Source of the DNA: Sulfurimonas sp. HSL3-2
GTDB lineage: Bacteria > Campylobacterota > Campylobacteria > Campylobacterales > Sulfurimonadaceae
Assembly (NCBI RefSeq): GCF_039645965.1
Contig: NZ_CP147917.1
Location: 1,674,001-1,738,000, forward strand
Length of the DNA stretch: 64,000 bases
Direction: 5' to 3'
Shown in pieces: positions 28,912 through 41,335 of this stretch (positions are counted from its first letter, which is position 1; the number at the start of each line of letters is the position of its first letter). Below the pieces are notes generated by a model that worked only from the letters and a program-made list of their open reading frames with translations, searched no databases and was not told the origin of the DNA. A program made the translations under genes and the position numbers.

Positions 28912-29373
28912 TTATGTGAAGAATTCTACAAATACTTTATCAAGATATTTTTTCGTGTTTTCTACTTTTTCTATCTTTTTGTCAAAGATCGGTTTTGTCG
29001 ACGGAAAACGTTCACTGTACTCACGGTATAGATCGCATTTCATATCCATATTTTTTACAAACTGATCCATTACAAGCTTCATATCATCCGGTGTTGCAAT
29101 CCATCTCATAAAGTTTTGAAACATTCTTTCTCTGACATCAAGTGCAAAATGTTCGTCAAGCTCTGCTGCCATAGCTTTTAAATCCCATCTTGAGAAGTAG
29201 ACACCGCTTTTTACAGGAGGCATCACCTCTTTATACATTGCTACTAGATAATCCGGATAGTCTTCACGATTCTCGTCAGTTACACAACTTCCGTCATCGC
29301 AACCCTCTTGCTGCATATTTTTTTGAAGTGCTTCAAACTCACTTCTTAGTTCATTTAGATCTTTAATATCCAT
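28912..29373 (-). CDS. Unknown protein, last gene of the molybdoenzyme operon
   Basis: 153 aa, unrecognised, mostly helical and soluble. Notable are EGCDDGSC near residue 24 and a Met- and Asp-rich helix (DDMKLVMDQFVKNMDMKC). Its start overlaps the stop of the AroE-like gene by one base, so it is part of the operon. It may be a specific assembly factor or chaperone, but nothing in the sequence proves this. Confidence 0.7.
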   Translation of the reverse strand: MDIKDLNELRSEFEALQKNMQQEGCDDGSCVTDENREDYPDYLVAMYKEVMPPVKSGVYFSRWDLKAMAAELDEHFALDVRERMFQNFMRWIATPDDMKLVMDQFVKNMDMKCDLYREYSERFPSTKPIFDKKIEKVENTKKYLDKVFVEFFT

Positions 29374-30125
29374 TATTTTATATCCTCTATTAAGTGTATT
29401 GTATAGAAATCCAGCAGATTATCAAAACCGATATATCCCTCAAAGCCTTTAAGACTTGAAAAACTCTTTGAGTCTTTGATATCAAGATTCATCGCCGAAG
29501 GCTTTGATATACAAGTCGATATATCCTCTATGGTCGTGTCTATCAGCATATCATATCCGCTAAAGTCGACTCCGTTTGGTGAAAGATAGTTTATATCCAT
29601 CTCTACATGCAGATCCTGACTCATAGATAGAAGTCTTTCGATCTCACTATCGTAAAACGAGAGCTCATAGCCCTCTAAAAGCAGAGCCAGCCCGCGTGAT
29701 AAAGGCTCATCACCTATTATCGCTATCTTCTTTATGCTTTGATCTGCTTTTATAAACTCTTTGACAACATCAGCAGATATAAAATCTCCGCTAAGAGTCT
29801 GCCCTGCTCTTTTTACGAAATCGCATCCGCCGCTTTTTTTCACCATCTCAGATGAATCGTCAAGCAGGTCCAGTATCTCTTTTTGATATTCAAGACCGAG
29901 CATCGCACCGTTCACATGAGATTTCTTCATATTTGAAAGAGTGAAATAAAAATCATCCTCACGGATATTCATCGGTATCATCATACCGTCGATATTTTCC
30001 TCTTTTAAAGCTTTGTTAAAGTTGTGACTGAGTCTATTTGTCGATGCAGATACTGCGATATATCCGTAAAGAACAGTCTCTTTACCTATTCTGTCATCAA
30101 GGTTCATGCTGTTTTCTTCACTCAT
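29373..30125 (-). CDS. Degenerate shikimate-dehydrogenase-like protein
   Basis: 250 aa from ATG 30125, chosen because GGGGGAT precedes it; ATG 30137 is also in frame. The fold pattern of AroE is visible: N-terminal strand VLYGYIAVSASTNRLSHNFN in the place of the NPIxHSxSP substrate loop, LEYQKEILDLLD matching the Lys-bearing segment, a Rossmann strand IAIIGDEPLSRGL in place of GAGGAAR, and DMLIDTT matching the DLLINATP strand. The substrate-binding Ser residues and the glycines of the dinucleotide loop are not conserved, so ordinary shikimate dehydrogenase activity is unlikely. Its operon position suggests a role tied to the molybdoenzyme. Confidence 0.65.
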   Translation of the reverse strand: MSEENSMNLDDRIGKETVLYGYIAVSASTNRLSHNFNKALKEENIDGMMIPMNIREDDFYFTLSNMKKSHVNGAMLGLEYQKEILDLLDDSSEMVKKSGGCDFVKRAGQTLSGDFISADVVKEFIKADQSIKKIAIIGDEPLSRGLALLLEGYELSFYDSEIERLLSMSQDLHVEMDINYLSPNGVDFSGYDMLIDTTIEDISTCISKPSAMNLDIKDSKSFSSLKGFEGYIGFDNLLDFYTIHLIEDIK

Positions 30126-31219
30126 CTGATCCCCCATAACTCTCTAGCTTCTTCCTCTTCTATTTTACATCTGTCACACAACACTTCTCCGCCCTTGTAA
30201 GCAAAAGGAGTATTGCACTCGTCACACTTTTTAATGTTAAACTTGATCAGTTCTTCACCCTTCGGCTCAAAAAAGTTTTTCAGATTAAAAGTCGGTTTGA
30301 GTGTCAGTGAATCCGGTTCACACACGTCATGACAGCTTGCACATTTCACACATGCAAGCGGATTAAACGCTATAAACGACCCTTTCATATCCGAGCTGAG
30401 TGCACCTGTCGGACAAATACGGTAACACATCTGACAGTTCGTACATGTAGAAGCATCAAGATTTTTTTGCGACGTGAATGAGATGTCATCTACGCTGATG
30501 ATATGAAACTCTTCAGGTACTTCTGCACGCTTTAGCGCCATCAAAAGCAGACTTCTTCTATCAGGAACTTTTTTCTCTTTTATCTTAGCGATATCCGCAG
30601 CCGTGACAGTGTGAGATTTTATCTCGTCATCACCCTCATCGACTCTGTTTTGAAACTGCTGTTTTATCTGCGAGACACGTTTAATAGAATCTTTAGTGAT
30701 AAGTTCACGTCTTGAGATCACCTCTTTTTCATCTTCATGCATATGAGAAAGTTCCTCTACATGTAAACGTTTTTCTTGCATCATCGCTTCGAGCAGAAAG
30801 TTTACTTCTTCTGCTCTATGCTTGATGATGTCGAGATTAGTTTTAGCGATCTCGCACTCGGCACACGGACCGATATCAAGCGTTATCTCCTCTTTACTAA
30901 AAAGCGACATACTAAGCAGTTCATCTGTACTCAGTGCTGCGATACACGGAAGTTCACTCTTACATGTAAGGATCTGTTTATCGGTCTCTAAAAATTTAAA
31001 TATATAGTTTATCGGTTTAAAATCATCCAGACTGTACGCGGCAGTAGGACAAGCAGCCCCGCATCCGCCGCAGCCTACACATTCACTGGGAGTAAAAGAT
31101 ACGATATTGTCCTGTATTTTTATTGTATCTACCGGACAAGCAGTCACACAACTATCGCAAGCTGCAGACTTATTGCTGGTATGGACACACTTAGAGATAT
31201 CTAATGAAAGTAGGCTCAT
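30122..31219 (-). CDS. Multi-cluster ferredoxin with C-terminal zinc ribbon
   Basis: 365-aa cytoplasmic iron-sulfur protein. N-terminal cysteines CDSCVTACP (near 21) and CVGCGGCGAACP (near 47) form one pair of cluster sites; a second ferredoxin module near 255-305 has CTNCQMCYRICP and CVKCASCHDVCEP. Between them are CKSELPC and CAEC, then a helical linker. The C-terminus has CDECNTPF and CDRC, probably a zinc ribbon. Overlaps torD-like upstream by four bases. Such proteins may carry electrons or help cluster insertion; without a membrane or signal segment it stays in the cytoplasm. Confidence 0.85.
   Translation of the reverse strand: MSLLSLDISKCVHTSNKSAACDSCVTACPVDTIKIQDNIVSFTPSECVGCGGCGAACPTAAYSLDDFKPINYIFKFLETDKQILTCKSELPCIAALSTDELLSMSLFSKEEITLDIGPCAECEIAKTNLDIIKHRAEEVNFLLEAMMQEKRLHVEELSHMHEDEKEVISRRELITKDSIKRVSQIKQQFQNRVDEGDDEIKSHTVTAADIAKIKEKKVPDRRSLLLMALKRAEVPEEFHIISVDDISFTSQKNLDASTCTNCQMCYRICPTGALSSDMKGSFIAFNPLACVKCASCHDVCEPDSLTLKPTFNLKNFFEPKGEELIKFNIKKCDECNTPFAYKGGEVLCDRCKIEEEEARELWGIR
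30960..30969. repeat. TTACATGTAA palindrome, copy 8
   Basis: Inside the multi-cluster ferredoxin gene, read there as Leu-Thr-Cys-Lys; extends to CTTACATGTAAG. Confidence 0.9.
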
Positions 31220-31866
31220 GCGCTATATTTGTATCCGTTTGATTTGAGTTCCGTCAGATATTCAAAATCACTCATCATAAACTCTAATGCAAGCTCAGCC
31301 GCATCAAAATAAAATGCAGTTCCGGCTTCAGATTTCACATTCAGTAAAAACATCGGAGCCCACTCTAAAAGATGATCTTTTAAGAAGTTATACTCGATCT
31401 CAGCTATCTCTGCTGCTATCTCAAACTCACCGTCTTCAAGAGCTTTATACTCCGCTTCACAAAGCTTGTACATAAACTCCAGTTCAACGCCTATATGGTC
31501 AGCACTCATAACACGTGCTTTATCAAGTTCGACTCTAAAATCGAAATCATTATAAAGTGCTTGAACAGGATTATCTCCACCTGTTTCCATCATCTGGTCA
31601 TCACGAAGATAAAAAGACTCATACGGAATTAAATGAAGTAAAAAAAGGTTAGTAAAATCAACATTCAGATATTTTTCGACCAGGTCTTTAGGACTTAGCT
31701 GTTTACGCTTTTCCCAATCTTTAAACGACGGAAAAAAAGCAAGCATGTTTTCATCATCCACTATTGATTTTAACAACGTTTCATCGACTTCACTCATCAA
31801 TATACGAGATGTAAGTGCATAGAGGTTTACACGTGATAATTGTTCTGTTTTAAGGGTTTCTTGCAT
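31216..31866 (-). CDS. TorD/DmsD-family molybdoenzyme chaperone
   Basis: 216-aa all-helical protein of the TorD family, which binds the Tat signal of a molybdoenzyme and holds it until the cofactor is inserted. Seen: NLYALTSRIL near the N-terminus, PYESFYLRDD near 80, and MSADHIGVELEFMYKL near 117, the conserved DH-containing stretch. It follows the catalytic-subunit gene by about 80 bp and overlaps the ferredoxin gene, so it is very likely the dedicated chaperone of that subunit. Confidence 0.85.
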   Translation of the reverse strand: MQETLKTEQLSRVNLYALTSRILMSEVDETLLKSIVDDENMLAFFPSFKDWEKRKQLSPKDLVEKYLNVDFTNLFLLHLIPYESFYLRDDQMMETGGDNPVQALYNDFDFRVELDKARVMSADHIGVELEFMYKLCEAEYKALEDGEFEIAAEIAEIEYNFLKDHLLEWAPMFLLNVKSEAGTAFYFDAAELALEFMMSDFEYLTELKSNGYKYSA

Positions 31867-31947
31867 AGATAAGGTACCTTTTGGAGAAATATTTTTGAAG
31901 TATATTAAAGCACCACTTGATGTGGGCTTTAATATATAAGTTATACG

Positions 31948-34900
31948 TTATTTGATCTTAACTGCGTAAGCTTTGTTTGAAAGCGGAACAGCCGGACGTG
32001 GCATATGTTGAGGACGACGTAATTTGTCTCCTACTGCAAGTGGACGAGTAAGTTCGTCTCTCCATGCTTGATATACTTTAAAGTTGTTTTCATAGTTAAC
32101 AACGATATCACCGATCTTATCATCAGCTTTCGCTTTTTCTATGATAACTTTTTGGTGCCATGCATGGTTACCAGCGATCGGGTCAGCATGTGTCGGAGCC
32201 ACAGCATTTTGCCATGAACCGCTCAGACCGTTCCACCAAATTTGGTCAAGGTCTTTGTTGTACTCTTTGAACTGCCATACATCATGACGAGGATGAATAC
32301 CCTCAGCAGGTTTTAGTGTTCCTACTTTACCGTCATTTGTCATGTCATATCTAGGAGCACCTACACCCATGATACCAAGTTTGTGTTCAAATCCTGGAAT
32401 ATCTACAGAGTCTTTAAGTTTCCAACGACCAGCATGGTGTGAACAAGCTAAAACACCCGGACGAGTTGCTTCAGTCGGTACAGCCATAGCTACAAAGTAA
32501 CCGCTTTCTAAACCAGAAACCGTATCTGTGATTCTTACACGGATAGCATCTCCACGTTTGATTCCAAGTTTCTCAGCATCTTTAGTATAAATCCAAACCG
32601 GGTTATGGTTTTGAGAGATCTCCATAAGGTGTTTAGAGTTCACTGAACGTGTATGGATGTTGTACGGTAATCTATAGATCGTATTTAACGCGAACTCGTT
32701 GTCACCATGCATCATAGAGTGGTGTACTTGAGTTACGATGTGTTTCATCTTCTCGTACTCACCCTCATTACGTGGATAAACAGGGATCGCATACTCCGGC
32801 CATTTCCACTCAGTTAACCACTCAGCGAAGAACTCAAGTTTTTTACTTAGTGTATGGAAACCTTCATGAAGTTTACCGTTTACTTCGATACCGATAGATT
32901 GTTTACGTCCATCTTCTTCTACCCACAATGTTCCAAATTTATCTTTTGTAACTTCGTGTTTAGGATGTTTTTTACCATGTGCAACATAGTTTTTACCATC
33001 AAAATGAAGTTCTTCCTCTTGTGGTTTATAAACATCAGTTTTCTCAGTCCAAGCACCATGATCTCTCATGTACTCATAAACCGGGAATTCAGAGTTTGCG
33101 TACAGTTTTTTAGCTGTCTCTGCAAGTCTTGGAAGCAAGCTCATAGCCGCATCAAAGTACTCAGGAACAGTAACCGCACGTGATGGATCTTTTTTAGATG
33201 CCCAGTATTTACGGATACCAAGACTTCCATCAGCATCAATATGGTGAACCATAATATTTGCCCAGAACTCAGTTTCTTCCCAGATCTCACCTAGACCGTA
33301 TTTCATGTGTGCTTCAAGTGTAGCACGAGATGGATCTTTTGCTTTCCAACCCATTTTTTCTGCTGCAACACGTAGAACCGCTTGACGGAACTCTATACGT
33401 TGTTCAGGTTTAGACGGAGTCGATTGTTGATCATTACGCTCACCTGCAAGACCTGTTGGTAAGATGTAATCACAATACCAGTTAGTCTCACTCCATGTAG
33501 GAGAAAGGTTAAATGAAAGCTCGATTTTTGTCTCGTCTTTAAGCGCTTCGATCCATCTGAAACCATCCGGATTGATCCAAACCGGGTTATACATACGTGG
33601 GAACCAAACTGCAAGTTTAGTCGGAACGTTTAGACCTTTAGCGATCCATTTTTGTTGCCACTCTTCATCCATAAGAAGGTGAGGCATGATATGACTCATC
33701 TCATATGATGATAATGGGTATTCCGGTGGCCAAGCGATCTCATTCCAAACATCGACTTTACCTGGTCTTTCACCTGCAACAGTAGCTTTATCACCTTTTC
33801 CTGCAACAGAAATCTCATGCCAGTGGTGGAAAGAAGTTCCTCCAACATCACCACGAAGTGCGCCACGTAATACAAGAGTTAAGAAACCAGCACGTGTGTT
33901 CATCCAACCACCACGGTGACCGATCGGTCCTGCACGCCATAGGTATGTAGCTATTTTAGAACCAGCAGAGATGTACATCTCCCATAATTGGTCTAATTTA
34001 TATTCCATACCTTCAAGTTTACACTCTTTAACGACGAAATCTTGTGTATACGGAGCATAAAGCTCTTTGATCATCTCGATAAAGTCTTCGTATTTGTCAC
34101 CTTTTGGCATTTTAGATATGTAACCATATCCAACCATCTTTTTAAGATAGTCTTTGTTAGCCATTAGACGATCCCAGTTTACCCATTCTTTAACAAAATC
34201 ATGAGCTACTAGATCTTCACCGTTTTTATCTTTTTCGTTTAATACACGGTTTGCTAGGTAAAGGTAAAGTGCCGCTTCAGTACCTGGCCACGCCGGGATC
34301 CAAAGGTCTGCCATACCTGCAGAGTTACTCATACGAGGATCGATAACAACCATTCTTGCACCACGTTTACGTGCATCAGCGATAAGACCAGCTGATTGTT
34401 GGAAGTAGTGACCAGCATCTGCAGCGTGAGATGATTGTAAGAAAATCAGATCAGCATTTGCCCAATCCGGAGAGTTTCTATCATCGTTTGCCCACTGAAT
34501 AGTACCCTGACGAGCACCGGCAGAACAGATGTTTGTATGAGAGTCGAAACCATCGATACCCATTGTATGAGGTACACGGTGACCGAAACCGTTCTCATTT
34601 GGACGACCTACGTGGTAGATCATCGATTTTTTAGACATCTCATCGCCGACTTTTAGCGTATCGTGCATTTTCTTACCGATTGCACCCATAGCCTCATCCC
34701 AAGTCGTACGAACCCATTTACCTTCACCACGTTTAGAACCCGGTGCACGTTTAAGTGGGAATGGAATACGATCCGGATCGTACATTTGAGAAGTTACTGC
34801 ATAACCTTTTGCACAGTTACGTCCACGAGAACCTGTATGTAACGGGTTACCCATGTATTTACGTACTGTCATAGTGTCTTTATTAACCCATGCAGTAAGA

Positions 34901-35217
34901 CCACAACCTGCTTCACAGTTTGAACAAACTGTCGGAACAAGCATAAAGTTGTTTACTTGGATACCGTCTGGATTTTCTTCACTTCTTACTCCGTGACGTT
35001 CAATACCGCCACGTTTCCAATCTGTACCGTCAAGCTCTGCAAAGTTATCCCACTCTTTATGAGGAGGATAAAATGACAAAGAATCCGGCGTATTGGTAAA
35101 TTTTGATTCTGTAACAGACTCTGCAACAGCATCTGTACTAAATACACCTCTTGCTAATGTGACACCTGCAACTGAAAATGCAGCGCCTTTTAAAAATGTT
35201 CTTCTTTCTAAATACAT
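31948..35217 (-). CDS. Tat-exported molybdopterin oxidoreductase, catalytic subunit
   Basis: 1089-aa member of the DMSO-reductase (CISM) family. Twin-arginine signal ERRTFLKGAAFSVAG at 4-18, so it works in the periplasm. A [4Fe-4S] site has CSNCEAGCG near 97-105 and RNCAKG near 134. The likely Mo ligand is Cys in NICSAGARQG near 229, as in polysulfide, thiosulfate, tetrathionate, nitrate (Nap) and formate enzymes, not Ser or Asp. It is much longer than PsrA or PhsA (about 760 aa) and nearer to TtrA and ArrA. Substrate not determined; a sulfur-compound reductase is a reasonable guess for this organism type. Operon partners supply Fe-S, membrane and chaperone parts. Confidence 0.92.
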   Translation of the reverse strand: MYLERRTFLKGAAFSVAGVTLARGVFSTDAVAESVTESKFTNTPDSLSFYPPHKEWDNFAELDGTDWKRGGIERHGVRSEENPDGIQVNNFMLVPTVCSNCEAGCGLTAWVNKDTMTVRKYMGNPLHTGSRGRNCAKGYAVTSQMYDPDRIPFPLKRAPGSKRGEGKWVRTTWDEAMGAIGKKMHDTLKVGDEMSKKSMIYHVGRPNENGFGHRVPHTMGIDGFDSHTNICSAGARQGTIQWANDDRNSPDWANADLIFLQSSHAADAGHYFQQSAGLIADARKRGARMVVIDPRMSNSAGMADLWIPAWPGTEAALYLYLANRVLNEKDKNGEDLVAHDFVKEWVNWDRLMANKDYLKKMVGYGYISKMPKGDKYEDFIEMIKELYAPYTQDFVVKECKLEGMEYKLDQLWEMYISAGSKIATYLWRAGPIGHRGGWMNTRAGFLTLVLRGALRGDVGGTSFHHWHEISVAGKGDKATVAGERPGKVDVWNEIAWPPEYPLSSYEMSHIMPHLLMDEEWQQKWIAKGLNVPTKLAVWFPRMYNPVWINPDGFRWIEALKDETKIELSFNLSPTWSETNWYCDYILPTGLAGERNDQQSTPSKPEQRIEFRQAVLRVAAEKMGWKAKDPSRATLEAHMKYGLGEIWEETEFWANIMVHHIDADGSLGIRKYWASKKDPSRAVTVPEYFDAAMSLLPRLAETAKKLYANSEFPVYEYMRDHGAWTEKTDVYKPQEEELHFDGKNYVAHGKKHPKHEVTKDKFGTLWVEEDGRKQSIGIEVNGKLHEGFHTLSKKLEFFAEWLTEWKWPEYAIPVYPRNEGEYEKMKHIVTQVHHSMMHGDNEFALNTIYRLPYNIHTRSVNSKHLMEISQNHNPVWIYTKDAEKLGIKRGDAIRVRITDTVSGLESGYFVAMAVPTEATRPGVLACSHHAGRWKLKDSVDIPGFEHKLGIMGVGAPRYDMTNDGKVGTLKPAEGIHPRHDVWQFKEYNKDLDQIWWNGLSGSWQNAVAPTHADPIAGNHAWHQKVIIEKAKADDKIGDIVVNYENNFKVYQAWRDELTRPLAVGDKLRRPQHMPRPAVPLSNKAYAVKIK

Positions 35218-35228
35218 CTATTACCTCT

Positions 35229-36125
35229 TTAACTCAAGTTCAATAATTGTGGAATAACCAACCATACATGTTTAACAATCCATAATCCAGCGATCGCCAG
35301 TATAGCAGCTAGTTTCAATAAACTTTCACTTCTACTAGAGATACTAAGTAGAACTAAAACCATAGGAAGGATATAAGCAGTTGCTTGACCTATCCAGAAC
35401 ATTGTTGTGTACTCGCCTGCACCTTTAACAGCTTGAAGTGTTACGATAACCTCTTCACCCTTCATCGGTCCAAATACCATTTCACTCATATATACTATGA
35501 ATGCAACAGCTGCACTAAGACCTAAAATGATACCTAGATCTCTTTTTGCCTCGTAAGGTAGTTTGCCACCCATTAAGATAAGCGCTCCTGAACCTGTCAG
35601 TGTAGCTGCGAGTAACATTTGAACAGCTTCTGTAGGCATTTGCCATAGTTCACGTGCTGTAGCTTCAGCCATGATCGCTGCTGTATATAATGTAACAGGG
35701 ATTGAAAGGACAACTGCCCAAGTCAACATTTTGTCAAAAGCTTCTGTGTTTTTCTTAATAAATACTGTAAATGCCATTAAGAATAATAGAGCTACTAAAA
35801 CTGTTACGATCCATGCACCCACTGCAATTGCAGATGTCAAGTGAGGGTGTGTGAATATATGCCAGAATCTAAACATCTGGTGTAGGTCGATAACCGTAAA
35901 GAGTAAGAATATATGTATAAATACAATAGATACTACTACTACCGGGAAACGTAAATAACCTGCTTCATTCGGATATTTCTTAAGTAGATAGAAAAGCAAA
36001 AAGATAACACCAGTACCGATACTTTTTGCCCACATGTTCATAGTGATAATCCAACCCCATACGATGCTTGGCAAGCCTACATCTAGAGTTACAACTGCGT
36101 GTGTTGCTTCAATTGCTGCATGCAT
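35229..36125 (-). CDS. NrfD/PsrC-type membrane anchor subunit
   Basis: 298-aa polytopic protein with about eight TM helices (centred near 20, 55, 85, 120, 150, 180, 225 and 265), as in the NrfD/PsrC family that exchanges electrons between the quinone pool and the Fe-S subunit. It lacks haem-ligand motifs, which fits NrfD-type quinone sites. It abuts the Fe-S subunit gene upstream and lies 11 bp before the catalytic gene. Confidence 0.88.
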   Translation of the reverse strand: MHAAIEATHAVVTLDVGLPSIVWGWIITMNMWAKSIGTGVIFLLFYLLKKYPNEAGYLRFPVVVVSIVFIHIFLLFTVIDLHQMFRFWHIFTHPHLTSAIAVGAWIVTVLVALLFLMAFTVFIKKNTEAFDKMLTWAVVLSIPVTLYTAAIMAEATARELWQMPTEAVQMLLAATLTGSGALILMGGKLPYEAKRDLGIILGLSAAVAFIVYMSEMVFGPMKGEEVIVTLQAVKGAGEYTTMFWIGQATAYILPMVLVLLSISSRSESLLKLAAILAIAGLWIVKHVWLVIPQLLNLS

Positions 36126-36760
36126 TAATGGTGCCCTCCTACTGGTAAGTGTTTTAATTCATCAAATAATGAGAAACCTTCAACGCGCTCAGATACCAAC
36201 GGATTAAGATTTACATCTCCACCGCCGACATAATAGTGATGAGGGTCTGTTCCTTTTTCAGGTTTTCTAACTCTTGTATCTCTGTGATCTTGAATATATT
36301 TGCTGATGTTTGATGTAGGATCATCTAAGTCACCAAAGATATTTGCTTCAACAGGACAAGCAACAACACACGCCGGCATCATGCTAGATGCGATACGGTG
36401 TGCACAATATGTACACTTATCAGCAGTTTGAGTCTCAGGATCGATATAGATAGCACCGTATGGACAAGCCATGATACAACCCGCACATCCGATACAACGT
36501 TCTTTATCGATATTTACAATTCCATTATCAATATAGTGTAAAGCACTTACCGGACATATACGTTCACAAGGTGCATTAGCACAATGGTTACAACGTAATG
36601 GTGTAAATGTACGCTTTGTTTCAGGGTACATACCAACATCTACATACTTAACGCGAAGTCTCCACGTACTTAGCGGAACTTCATTTTCCACTTTACATGC
36701 GATTTCACAACCTTTACATCCCATACAAAGATGTAAGTCAACTAGAAAGCCCAATTGCAT
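36125..36760 (-). CDS. Four-cluster ferredoxin-like electron-transfer subunit (PsrB/DmsB type)
   Basis: 211 aa with four cysteine groups of the DmsB/PsrB/NrfC family: CMGCKGCEIACKVE near 12, CNHCANAPCERICP near 58, CIGCAGCIMACPYG near 90, and CTYCAHRI with CVVACP near 115-135. These bind four [4Fe-4S] clusters linking the membrane anchor to the molybdenum subunit. It lacks its own signal, so it would be exported with the Tat-dependent catalytic subunit. First gene of the operon; GGAGAG precedes ATG 36760. Confidence 0.93.
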   Translation of the reverse strand: MQLGFLVDLHLCMGCKGCEIACKVENEVPLSTWRLRVKYVDVGMYPETKRTFTPLRCNHCANAPCERICPVSALHYIDNGIVNIDKERCIGCAGCIMACPYGAIYIDPETQTADKCTYCAHRIASSMMPACVVACPVEANIFGDLDDPTSNISKYIQDHRDTRVRKPEKGTDPHHYYVGGGDVNLNPLVSERVEGFSLFDELKHLPVGGHH

Positions 36761-36819
36761 ATACTCTCCTTCACCTACTTTGTAGATATTTTAGCGTTTT
36801 ATTAGCAGAACTAATTTTT

Positions 36820-36825
36820 ATTATA
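36820..36825 (-). promoter_or_regulatory. -10 box of the molybdoenzyme operon
   Basis: Minus-strand TATAAT in an AT-rich region, giving a leader of about 55 nt before the first gene, which has a strong Shine-Dalgarno. The 300-bp gap to hisD is otherwise AT-rich and could hold regulator sites, but no clear FNR or CRP palindrome was found. Confidence 0.55.
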
Positions 36826-36984
36826 AAGATACCGTAATATACGACACTCACAGCATTTTCGCTATTTGATATTAACTAATCTTTCTTTAACCGAAACTAA
36901 AATAACATAATTTTTTTTGATAAAAGTGTGATAAATAGGTATTTGTGTAATAAAAGAATGTAGGATTACTTTTTTTTATATAAG

Positions 36985-37000
36985 CCCCGAATCTTCGGGG
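36985..37000. other. GC-rich hairpin in the hisD-molybdoenzyme gap
   Basis: CCCCGAA (36985-36991) pairs with TTCGGGG (36994-37000), a GC-rich palindrome in very AT-rich DNA. On the plus strand a run of T precedes it; on the minus strand an A-rich stretch follows, so it does not fit a standard terminator for hisD. It could still stop or slow hisD transcription, or bind a protein. Confidence 0.4.
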
Positions 37001-37060
37001 GTAAGATGGTTCAATTTTAATGAATAAGATGTTAAATTAAAATTGATATCCGAAGATTTC

Positions 37061-39434: not shown

Positions 39435-39749
39435 ATGAAAGAAAAACTCCTGAACATACTTAACAATACAGAGTATCCACAAATAGGAAACGAATTTTTT
39501 GAAACGGTCCTATCTCATAAAAATGTCAAAATCGAACTTATACGATCAAACAACGTAAAAAACGGTGTTTTATATAATCAAAAGCATGATGAATGGGTCG
39601 TTATCTTAGAGGGAAATGCTATATTGGAAGTTGAAGATGTCAGACATAACCTGATTAAGGGAGACTCTCTGTTTATAAAAGCAGATACGCCCCATAGCGT
39701 CATCTCAACCGATGAGAAGACACTATGGCTGGCAGTGCATATATTCTAG
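39435..39749 (+). CDS. Small cupin-domain protein
   Basis: 104-aa single-domain cupin. The first motif is loosely matched at [16 protein letters not shown] (Glu present) and the second at [14 protein letters not shown], whose His is a likely metal ligand. Single-domain cupins of this type often bind a metal and may act as enzymes, small-molecule sensors or stress proteins; nothing here decides. The gene end overlaps the chemoreceptor stop by four bases, tail-to-tail. A likely leaderless transcript. Confidence 0.8.
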
Positions 39750-41335
39750 CTTCTAAACTCATCGATTCTAGATTTAAGCGAGTTTGCCACCTCTAAAAGT
39801 TTTGTAGACTCTGCATCTATTTGATTCACGCTATTTTCATTTTGTTTTGAGAACTCATCGATCTTATTTATCTTCTCAATGATCCACTCTATGTTTCTAA
39901 CGATCTCCTGAGTATCTTCAAAAGACTTATCAGCGACTTCTATCGAGAAGTTCATCGCTTCAGAAGTCGTATTGATCTTACCTTCTACATCAGACGATAT
40001 CTCTGTAAGTGCAGAAAGGTTTGAAGCATTCTGCCCCATTGAGTCACTCACATCGTTGATCGACTGAACGATCGTTCCGACACTGATCTCGATCTGCATA
40101 AGACTTTTTTGAGTACGTTCAGCAAGTTTTCTTACTTCGTCTGCAACGACTGCGAAACCACGTCCGTGTTCACCTGCACGCGCCGCTTCTATCGCGGCAT
40201 TAAGTGCTAAAAGGTTTGTCTGATCTGCGATGTCTTTAATGATATCCAAGACCTCTTTTACCTGATCTGCATCATTTTTAAGTCCGCCTAATTGAGAAGC
40301 GAGTTCAGTCTCTACTTCCATATACTCATCGACTCTGCCTACAAGATGGCTAAGCGCGTCTTTAGCAGTCAACAGCTCTGTATTTGCCGATGATATATGT
40401 TCTTGTGTCTCTTTTGTCACATCTATCGATCTGTTTAATATATCTTTTATCGAACCTGTTTTTTGTGTTGTCTGATTAACGATATCTCTTTCACTAGAGA
40501 TACTTTTATTTATAAGATCGGCTTGGCTTGACATGTTTTTTGCGATATCAATATTTTGCTTGCCTAAGTTTTTCACTTCATTGATCGTATCTTGTACAAC
40601 TTCGATGAAACTATTGACCGATGAAGCGGCATATGCAAACTCATCTTTGCCCGATACATTGATACGTTTTGTCAAATCTTTGTCGCCCTCGACTAAAGAG
40701 TGTGCACGGCAACCCAGGTTTTCCAAAGGGTTGATAACAGCTTTTGAGAAGAACAGCATGACCAGTGAAACAAAAGCGATACATGCTACGACTAAATAGA
40801 TAAGAAGAGTCATCTTCGTATGATTGATCTCTTTATCATTTTCAGCGAGTGATACGGTCATATCCATAACACCTAAAACTTCACCCTCATTTATGTTGAC
40901 GTGACATTCCAGACAGCTTTTTTGAGCGATCAAAGGTTTTAACAATCTTATAGTATGATGGCCGTTTCTTGATTCAATGATATTGCTTGTTCTTGTTTTA
41001 AATATGTCGGCTACTAAAGGATCCGTAGTAAACTTGCTCTCAAGGCCAAAAAGTTCGATTACGTTTTTAGATTTAGCGACACTGATATCGTCAATACCTT
41101 TGATCAACTTTTGAGACTCTTTTAAAGTCTCTTCGACTACTGCCGGATCACCCGCAAGCATACTTCTTGAAAGTGTTTGAAACACAGAATCACTAAGCAT
41201 ATGAAGTGACTTCTGAGCAGTCTTATTTGAAAACTCATTAAACGTCTCTGAGAGGTAATAATACATCCCTATAATCCCTATGATACTAACCGAAATCGTT
41301 GAGAAAATGATTTTTGACTTAACTGTTGAGAGCAT
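39746..41335 (-). CDS. Chemoreceptor with CxxCH motif in its periplasmic sensor
   Basis: 529-aa methyl-accepting chemotaxis protein. TM at about 8-27; a periplasmic domain (about 30-175) containing KSCLECHVN near 139, a CxxCH motif typical of covalent haem c; TM near 177-200; HAMP with GDKDLTKRI; then the signalling tip [20 protein letters not shown]. The sensor resembles Tll0287-like (DUF3365) domains that carry such motifs. This suggests redox, gas or haem sensing, as shown for other haem-c chemoreceptors such as DcrA of Desulfovibrio. Haem attachment here is inferred only from the motif. Left end overlaps the cupin gene. Confidence 0.9.

Follow-up and report, generated by a model that had tools for sequence, protein, structure and literature searches.

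Which reaction is catalysed, and on which face of the membrane, by the molybdoenzyme encoded in a seven-gene operon of Sulfurimonas sp. HSL3-2? The operon lies in a stretch of 64,000 nucleotides of contig NZ_CP147917.1 (positions 1,674,001 to 1,738,000; hereafter the window), and its enzyme would usually be labelled a polysulfide reductase. We regard this label as doubtful, because the closest relatives of the enzyme in other bacteria and archaea face inward and lie beside sulfur-oxidation genes. Sequence comparison strongly supports a complex iron-sulfur molybdoenzyme (CISM) with export by the twin-arginine translocation (Tat) system, an outward-facing anchor, chaperoning by TorD together with a small protein that we call X, and a place in a distinct clade. 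That the substrate is a sulfur compound is quite probable and moderately supported, and our best reading is a sulfur-compound:menaquinone oxidoreductase of the bacterial SreA/SoeA sort, turned outward. The features of the operon, in window coordinates, are the following.

36761-37060, minus strand: intergenic region 5' of the operon, about 300 bp between hisD and the B gene, likely promoter region
36125-36760, minus strand: B, four-cluster Fe-S electron-transfer subunit, 211 aa (open reading frame (ORF) and family profile matches)
35229-36125, minus strand: C, NrfD/PsrC-type quinone-site anchor with eight transmembrane segments, 298 aa (Pfam and charge pattern)
31948-35217, minus strand: A, catalytic subunit for molybdenum-bis(pyranopterin guanine dinucleotide) (Mo-bisPGD), 1089 aa (Pfam, tree and fold model)
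35128-35217, minus strand: Tat signal peptide of A, MYLERRTFLKGAAFSVAGVTLA... (sequence; RRxFLK in all Campylobacterales copies)
34813-34926, minus strand: Fe4S4 cysteines of A, C98-C101-C105-C135 (Pfam Molybdop_Fe4S4; invariant in 39 relatives)
34525-34527, minus strand: Cys231 codon of A, predicted Mo ligand (column alignment; SHTNICSAG)
31216-31866, minus strand: D, TorD/NarJ-type maturation chaperone, 216 aa (Pfam PF02613)
30122-31219, minus strand: multi-cluster ferredoxin, 365 aa, with two dicluster regions and a C-terminal CxxC pair (Pfam)
29373-30137, minus strand: AroE-like degenerate protein, 254 aa (weak Pfam and NCBIfam matches)
28912-29373, minus strand: X, all-helical protein, 153 aa (homology to the C-terminal domain of TorD-X fusions)

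The gene order is thus B-C-A-TorD-ferredoxin-AroE-like-X, with all seven ORFs on the minus strand; they overlap or nearly abut, the widest gap being the 81 bp between A and TorD. The seven ORFs of the original prediction are confirmed, limits, overlaps and short gaps included. TorD, ferredoxin and X follow B-C-A at about 31 of the 41 loci compared in Campylobacterales, a synteny that excludes chance. A promoter and terminator scan of the operon gave nothing above chance, and no consensus promoter.

The catalytic subunit stands apart from the named families. As references the tree had Escherichia coli enzymes and, from the same order, TtrA, ArrA and Phs/Psr-type enzymes defined by hidden Markov models (HMMs). 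A falls in a clade of 28 rows (Shimodaira-Hasegawa-like approximate likelihood ratio support 100, stem of about 1.0), made up of 13 Tat-bearing Campylobacterales sequences and 15 Tat-less ones, the latter from Actinobacteria, Chloroflexota, Bacteroidota, Acidobacteria, Spirochaetes and haloarchaea, and this clade persists after the removal of long rows. Identity with PhsA/PsrA was rejected on two grounds: an approximately unbiased (AU) test excluded a group of the Tat copies with four Campylobacterota Phs/Psr-type enzymes (p = 7e-53), and the PhsA HMM gave 120 bits on A against 428-467 bits on the Phs/Psr-type enzymes of relatives, these references being PhsA-HMM-defined enzymes and not Wolinella succinogenes PsrA itself. 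TtrABC, a candidate prompted by the B-C-A order and the TtrB-like B, was rejected by HMM and tree: the TtrA HMM scored 887-981 bits on full-length TtrA in 11 relatives, had no match at E 1e-100 in the window genome and gave A 52 bits. ArrA/ArxA was discarded likewise, the ArrA HMM reaching about 1070-1097 bits in relatives with no match in the window genome at the threshold used; TtrA and ArrA each form clades separate from A. These comparisons strongly support that A is not PsrA/PhsA, TtrA or ArrA, and it is not DmsA or NapA either. The absence of a family assignment in the original prediction stands. Placement in a known family of which these accessory genes are a constant feature would have spoken against it and was found for none of the named families tested. 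The sister group of the clade (support 92-99) consists of Tat enzymes, including one on a plasmid of Azoarcus sp. KH32C. A further uncharacterised Tat molybdoenzyme of Campylobacterota, 842 aa long, belongs to this sister group and lies about 20 kb from a Phs/Psr-type gene (L212, 1274-3802). SoeA was looked for among plasmids and in the phylum of genome G298, and none was identifiable there.

The subunits have the domains of a CISM: Fe4S4, Mo-ligand and dinucleotide-binding domains in A, dicluster domains in B and NrfD in C. The N-terminus of A (MYLERRTFLKGAAFSVAG) is a Tat signal. Its Cys231, within SHTNICSAG, aligns with the Cys of NapA, TtrA and ArrA and with the Ser of DmsA and TorA, in agreement with the earlier proposal of Cys as the likely Mo ligand. 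This residue and the Fe4S4 cysteines are invariant among the 39 relatives; the motif SHTN[IV]CS recurs in 72 Tat-less homologues, and it is invariant, with many nearby residues, across both branches despite about 40% identity. The fold predicted for A (AlphaFold, compared by VIA-align) has as its top match Thermus thermophilus PsrA (2vpw; Z 25.5, root-mean-square deviation 3.2 over 685 residues), but PsrA, acetylene hydratase, ArrA, NapA and formate dehydrogenase all tie at Z values of 24-25.5, so that structure leaves the family undecided among the MopB enzymes.

The two branches differ in how they are mounted in the membrane. B, which is 69-94% identical across Campylobacterales and has TtrB as its best NCBIfam match (199 bits, under the cut-off of 416), carries no Tat signal of its own and is presumably exported together with A. 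The NrfD anchors of the Tat and Tat-less branches align in register, with the DL-P landmark motif in the same columns. In all 41 anchors of the Tat group, Lys and Arg are found mainly in loops 1-2, 3-4, 5-6 and 7-8 (mean 11.4 versus 3.9), and in all 69 Tat-less anchors, which are fused to B, mainly in the opposite loops (mean 18.0 versus 1.2; about 10.8 versus 1.2 for the consensus when the N-terminal linker is left out). E. coli DmsC and two other anchors of Tat enzymes, taken as controls, show the pattern of the Tat group. Under the positive-inside rule, these patterns imply that the two branches are mounted oppositely; they strongly support a B/quinone side at the periplasm for the operon's anchor and a cytoplasm-facing one for the Tat-less anchors. 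Since the outgroups are Tat enzymes, a single inversion on the Tat-less stem is the simplest history. An inversion of this kind was predicted for SoeC by Calisto and co-workers (PMC8076601), and the outward and inward enzymes form a pair on which that proposal can be tested directly, as well as a natural test of how NrfD couples quinone chemistry to the proton gradient.

The neighbourhoods of the Tat-less genes point to sulfur. Among loci over 15 kb, 23 of 37 have at least one gene for DsrE2, TusA, a persulfide-dioxygenase/rhodanese, SulP or TauE within about 8 kb, as against 1 of 20 random loci (Fisher p = 1.7e-5), a small control set that comes from three of these genomes; two or more kinds are present in 13 of the 37 and in none of the 20. 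Annotated examples are those of Rhodococcus jostii RHA1 (pRHL3) and Natrinema. This is the gene set of aerobic oxidation of persulfide to sulfite and then to sulfate, and sulfite oxidation is accordingly the activity that it suggests for the Tat-less branch; many hosts are aerobes (Rhodococcus, Thermomicrobium, haloarchaea), in which a sulfur reductase makes little sense. At one Chloroflexota locus (L111, 10950-13160), a SulP-STAS-rhodanese fusion protein is encoded directly 3' of the catalytic gene. In Pseudonocardia asaccharolytica (L100/G302, contigs C13 and C30) the Tat-less catalytic gene occurs twice, each copy with one in-frame TGA; pseudogenes, errors in the draft or misaligned ends may account for this.

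What, then, does the outward enzyme do? We tentatively favour oxidation of sulfite to sulfate with reduction of menaquinone, as by SoeABC, over polysulfide reduction. It is weakly suggested as the likeliest reaction by the other branch, which is cytoplasm-facing, has an inverted anchor and lies in sulfane-sulfur oxidation loci. A would fold around Mo-bisPGD in the cytoplasm with the aid of a two-part chaperone, TorD plus X, and would be exported with B through the Tat system. We infer that its Mo-Cys231 centre would then exchange two electrons with a small sulfur species, and that these electrons would pass through the Fe4S4 cluster of A and the four clusters of B to a quinone site on the periplasmic side of NrfD. 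The wider picture, possible but held with somewhat less assurance, is that one molybdoenzyme family occupies both membrane faces by way of an inverted NrfD: inward in aerobic sulfur oxidisers among the Actinobacteria, Chloroflexota, Bacteroidota and haloarchaea, and outward in Campylobacterota, as a periplasmic sulfite:menaquinone oxidoreductase mistaken for a polysulfide reductase and matured by a split TorD-X. The earlier suggestion of a periplasmic, quinone-linked respiratory enzyme, perhaps for a sulfur compound, agrees with the Tat signal, the outward anchor and the sulfur context of the relatives, which do not by themselves settle substrate or direction.

Several observations weigh against sulfite oxidation. 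Sulfur genes adjoin the Campylobacterales operon in none of 40 loci, the operon occurs both with and without SoxB, and SorAB is often already present in these bacteria for sulfite. The association with SoeA is indirect, passing through two publications (PMC10045233 and PMC10100899). The last point concerns Sulfurovum indicum, which is reported to have four PsrA proteins with Mo-ligand Cys at positions 171, 247, 183 and 195; one of them, PsrA2, is weakly expressed but raised under S0 reduction, favouring the reductive direction (PMC10045233).

These four proteins can be related to the operon. In genome G224, the ligand Cys is at 171 in a Nas-like enzyme (L210), at 247 in the enzyme of the operon's family (L049) and at 183 and 195 in Phs/Psr-type enzymes (L214, L213). 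The positions match the S. indicum set exactly, so PsrA2 (Cys247) is very probably an enzyme of the operon's family, which would likewise very probably be the PsrABC of the Sulfurimonas papers; PsrA1 was rejected as its counterpart, its Cys position fitting the Nas-like enzyme. None of the S. indicum PsrA proteins is said to have a twin-arginine motif (PMC10045233). The G224 copy of the operon's family starts ...ESRRTFLKGTAY..., and three of the four G224 enzymes show clear Tat signals; if the mapping holds, the cytoplasmic assignment of PsrA2 is doubtful. PsrA2 clusters with Aquifex SreA (PMC10045233), and Wells and co-workers grouped bacterial SreA with SoeA in one lineage with a Cys ligand (PMC10100899). 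By this indirect chain the operon's clade would belong to the SreA/SoeA radiation, which does not fix its reaction.

The same mapping, with the SreA clustering and the rise under S0 reduction, also speaks for a genuine polysulfide or elemental-sulfur reductase like PsrABC or SreABC, in which menaquinol from H2 or formate oxidation would reduce periplasmic polysulfide; we hold this a serious possibility, a little less likely than sulfite oxidation. Psr activity has been reported for relatives (PMC4674564), and the Psr homologues found in all Sulfurimonas genomes (PMC4584964) must mean this operon, which holds the sole NrfD of the window genome and of most genomes of its family, if that family is Sulfurimonadaceae. 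T. thermophilus PsrA is the best structural match, but at a Z shared with many MopB enzymes; the AU test and the PhsA HMM place A outside the PhsA/PsrA clade, psrABC transcripts of Black Sea Sulfurimonas did not follow sqr or soxCD (PMC9122950), and the Tat-less relatives are found in aerobes beside oxidation genes. It is unlikely that the enzyme acts on some other oxyanion of sulfur or a metalloid (tetrathionate, thiosulfate, arsenic species): the B-C-A order resembles ttrBCA and TtrB is the best match of B, the ArrA ligand motif is similar ([NS]H[ST]x[IVL]C), ars genes adjoin the KH32C sister system and a Soe-like enzyme has been proposed for arsenite in Thioalkalivibrio (PMC6620896), but the TtrA and ArrA HMMs, which give about 890-1100 bits on full-length members of the same order, find nothing in the window genome at the thresholds used, both families form separate clades, and no arsenic genes lie near the operon. 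Least likely is a non-sulfur respiratory enzyme, or a QrcB-like relative devoid of catalysis with a coincidental sulfur context in other phyla, a reading that draws on the absence of sulfur genes beside the Campylobacterales operon and beside 14 of the 37 long Tat-less loci, but against which stand the invariant Fe4S4 and Mo-ligand cysteines and the strong enrichment around the relatives.

The closest described systems share some features with the operon and differ in others. SoeABC of Allochromatium vinosum and Aquifex aeolicus shares with the operon a large Mo subunit with a Cys ligand, a four-cluster B and an NrfD anchor, and shares with the Tat-less homologues a cytoplasmic orientation and a sulfur-oxidation context. 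It differs from the operon, SoeA being compared by description, in that A has a Tat signal, an outward anchor, the order B-C-A and genes for TorD, X and ferredoxin; absence of Tat and cytoplasmic orientation, which characterise SoeABC, are found in the Tat-less branch and not in the operon enzyme. PsrABC/PhsABC (Wolinella, Salmonella, Thermus) resemble it in Tat signal, Cys ligand, NrfD anchor and periplasmic side, and in the nearest, if tied, fold; unlike them, A lies outside their clade, is about 300 aa longer and comes with extra maturation genes. TtrABC shares the B-C-A order, the subunit size (TtrA of about 1010-1020 aa), the Cys ligand and a TtrB-like Fe-S subunit, but belongs to a separate clade and is missed by the TtrA HMM in the window genome. 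Aquifex SreA is joined to the PsrA2-type enzymes of Sulfurovum and Sulfurimonas in a published phylogeny but, compared by description, is cytoplasmic. The uncharacterised KH32C CISM has the order B-C-A-TorD-hypotheticals-ferredoxin, an orthologous ferredoxin and a Tat signal; its catalytic subunit is, however, only 26% identical and the system adjoins ars genes.

The genes downstream of A had seemed puzzling additions, and the 153-aa protein an unknown; both can be revised. By profile search, TorD is present in 11 of 11 checked genomes with A and X in all but one of them, even where unlinked, and both are absent from the four genomes without A that were checked, all Campylobacterales picked for lacking A. 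The exception is genome G047, which has TorD and no detectable X. At nine other of the 41 loci TorD and X do not adjoin the operon but are located elsewhere in the genome, mostly about 2.4 kb from each other; this is clear in eight, while in G209 the weak match to X (E 2e-11) could come from a paralogue. The X HMM matches residues 243-365 of a 366-aa Chloroflexota protein at L111 (E 1e-9); the TorD HMM (E 4e-8) and Pfam Nitrate_red_del (E 2e-10) both hit the N-terminal part of this protein. Fusions of the same kind, with weaker first-pass scores, are encoded at L113, L143 and L165, and the genes for the fusions are located 3' of the Tat-less catalytic gene, next to it or close by. X thus has identifiable relatives and looks like the second, C-terminal half of a TorD-type chaperone. 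TorD and X are best read as a two-part maturation chaperone, since some Tat-less relatives have them as one protein and every checked genome with the enzyme has TorD. The model of X is all-helical at moderate confidence (predicted local distance difference test 72, five-row alignment), and a fold search with it found no match below E 0.9. Genomes G233, G176 and G209 have a second, diverged X-like protein and a second TorD (L300, L301, L299, L313; G209 perhaps only the diverged X), a pair that perhaps serves a sister-group enzyme.

The ferredoxin may be an accessory or maturation factor or may act in electron transfer. Its orthologue lies beside sister-group enzymes (KH32C, E 5e-37; L259, E 2e-14), and its HMM matches all 41 loci but lacks the specificity to establish orthology at every one. 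The AroE-like call rests on a weak match (Pfam E 2e-4; NCBIfam aroE E 1e-6, far below its cut-off; both under cut-off). In relatives the gene encodes 130-290 aa, and what many retain is no more than about 130-165 aa from the N-terminal domain; it was undetected by HMM in 14 of the 41 loci, and some loci have a diverged short version. The stretch of the catalytic Lys reads YQK, YQE or YQD in relatives, so that a working shikimate dehydrogenase is unlikely. The gene is degenerate and dispensable. Whether the accessory genes travel with A, a question put by the original prediction, is thus answered at genome level: in the genomes checked TorD always does and X nearly always. The AroE-like gene varies.

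Sulfur-oxidising Campylobacterales share the operon as a conserved unit, and it is not lineage-specific. Of 298 genomes of the class, 51 encode A (62-88% identity), among them every one of the 26 sampled from the family to which the window belongs; full-length copies, where examined, have 1086-1139 aa or slightly more, with a Tat signal and a conserved RRxFLK, and B-C-A are together at every locus examined. SoxB occurs in 29 of the 51 genomes, a co-occurrence that is not decisive as a functional clue. The window genome (G000), a single 2.24-Mb contig, has SoxB and no detectable NapA, and its genus mate G162 an apparent NapA-sized enzyme and no SoxB; the operon is present in both. The other MopB proteins of the window genome are a Nas-like one of 659 aa, an Fdh-like one of 687 aa, an unassigned one of 576 aa and a NuoG-type protein. 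C is the sole NrfD of this genome, and the operon's NrfD is the only one in most genomes of the family. In sulfidic redoxclines and at vents Campylobacterota are dominant, and psrABC in their metatranscriptomes is taken to mark sulfur reduction; if most of these genomes have a single NrfD molybdoenzyme that is not PsrA and may run oxidatively, such readings need revision. Elsewhere in the window (39746-41335) lies the gene for a chemotaxis receptor whose sensor part contains the c-type haem motif CLECH, and similar haem receptors are encoded close to the operon in 4 of 40 relatives.

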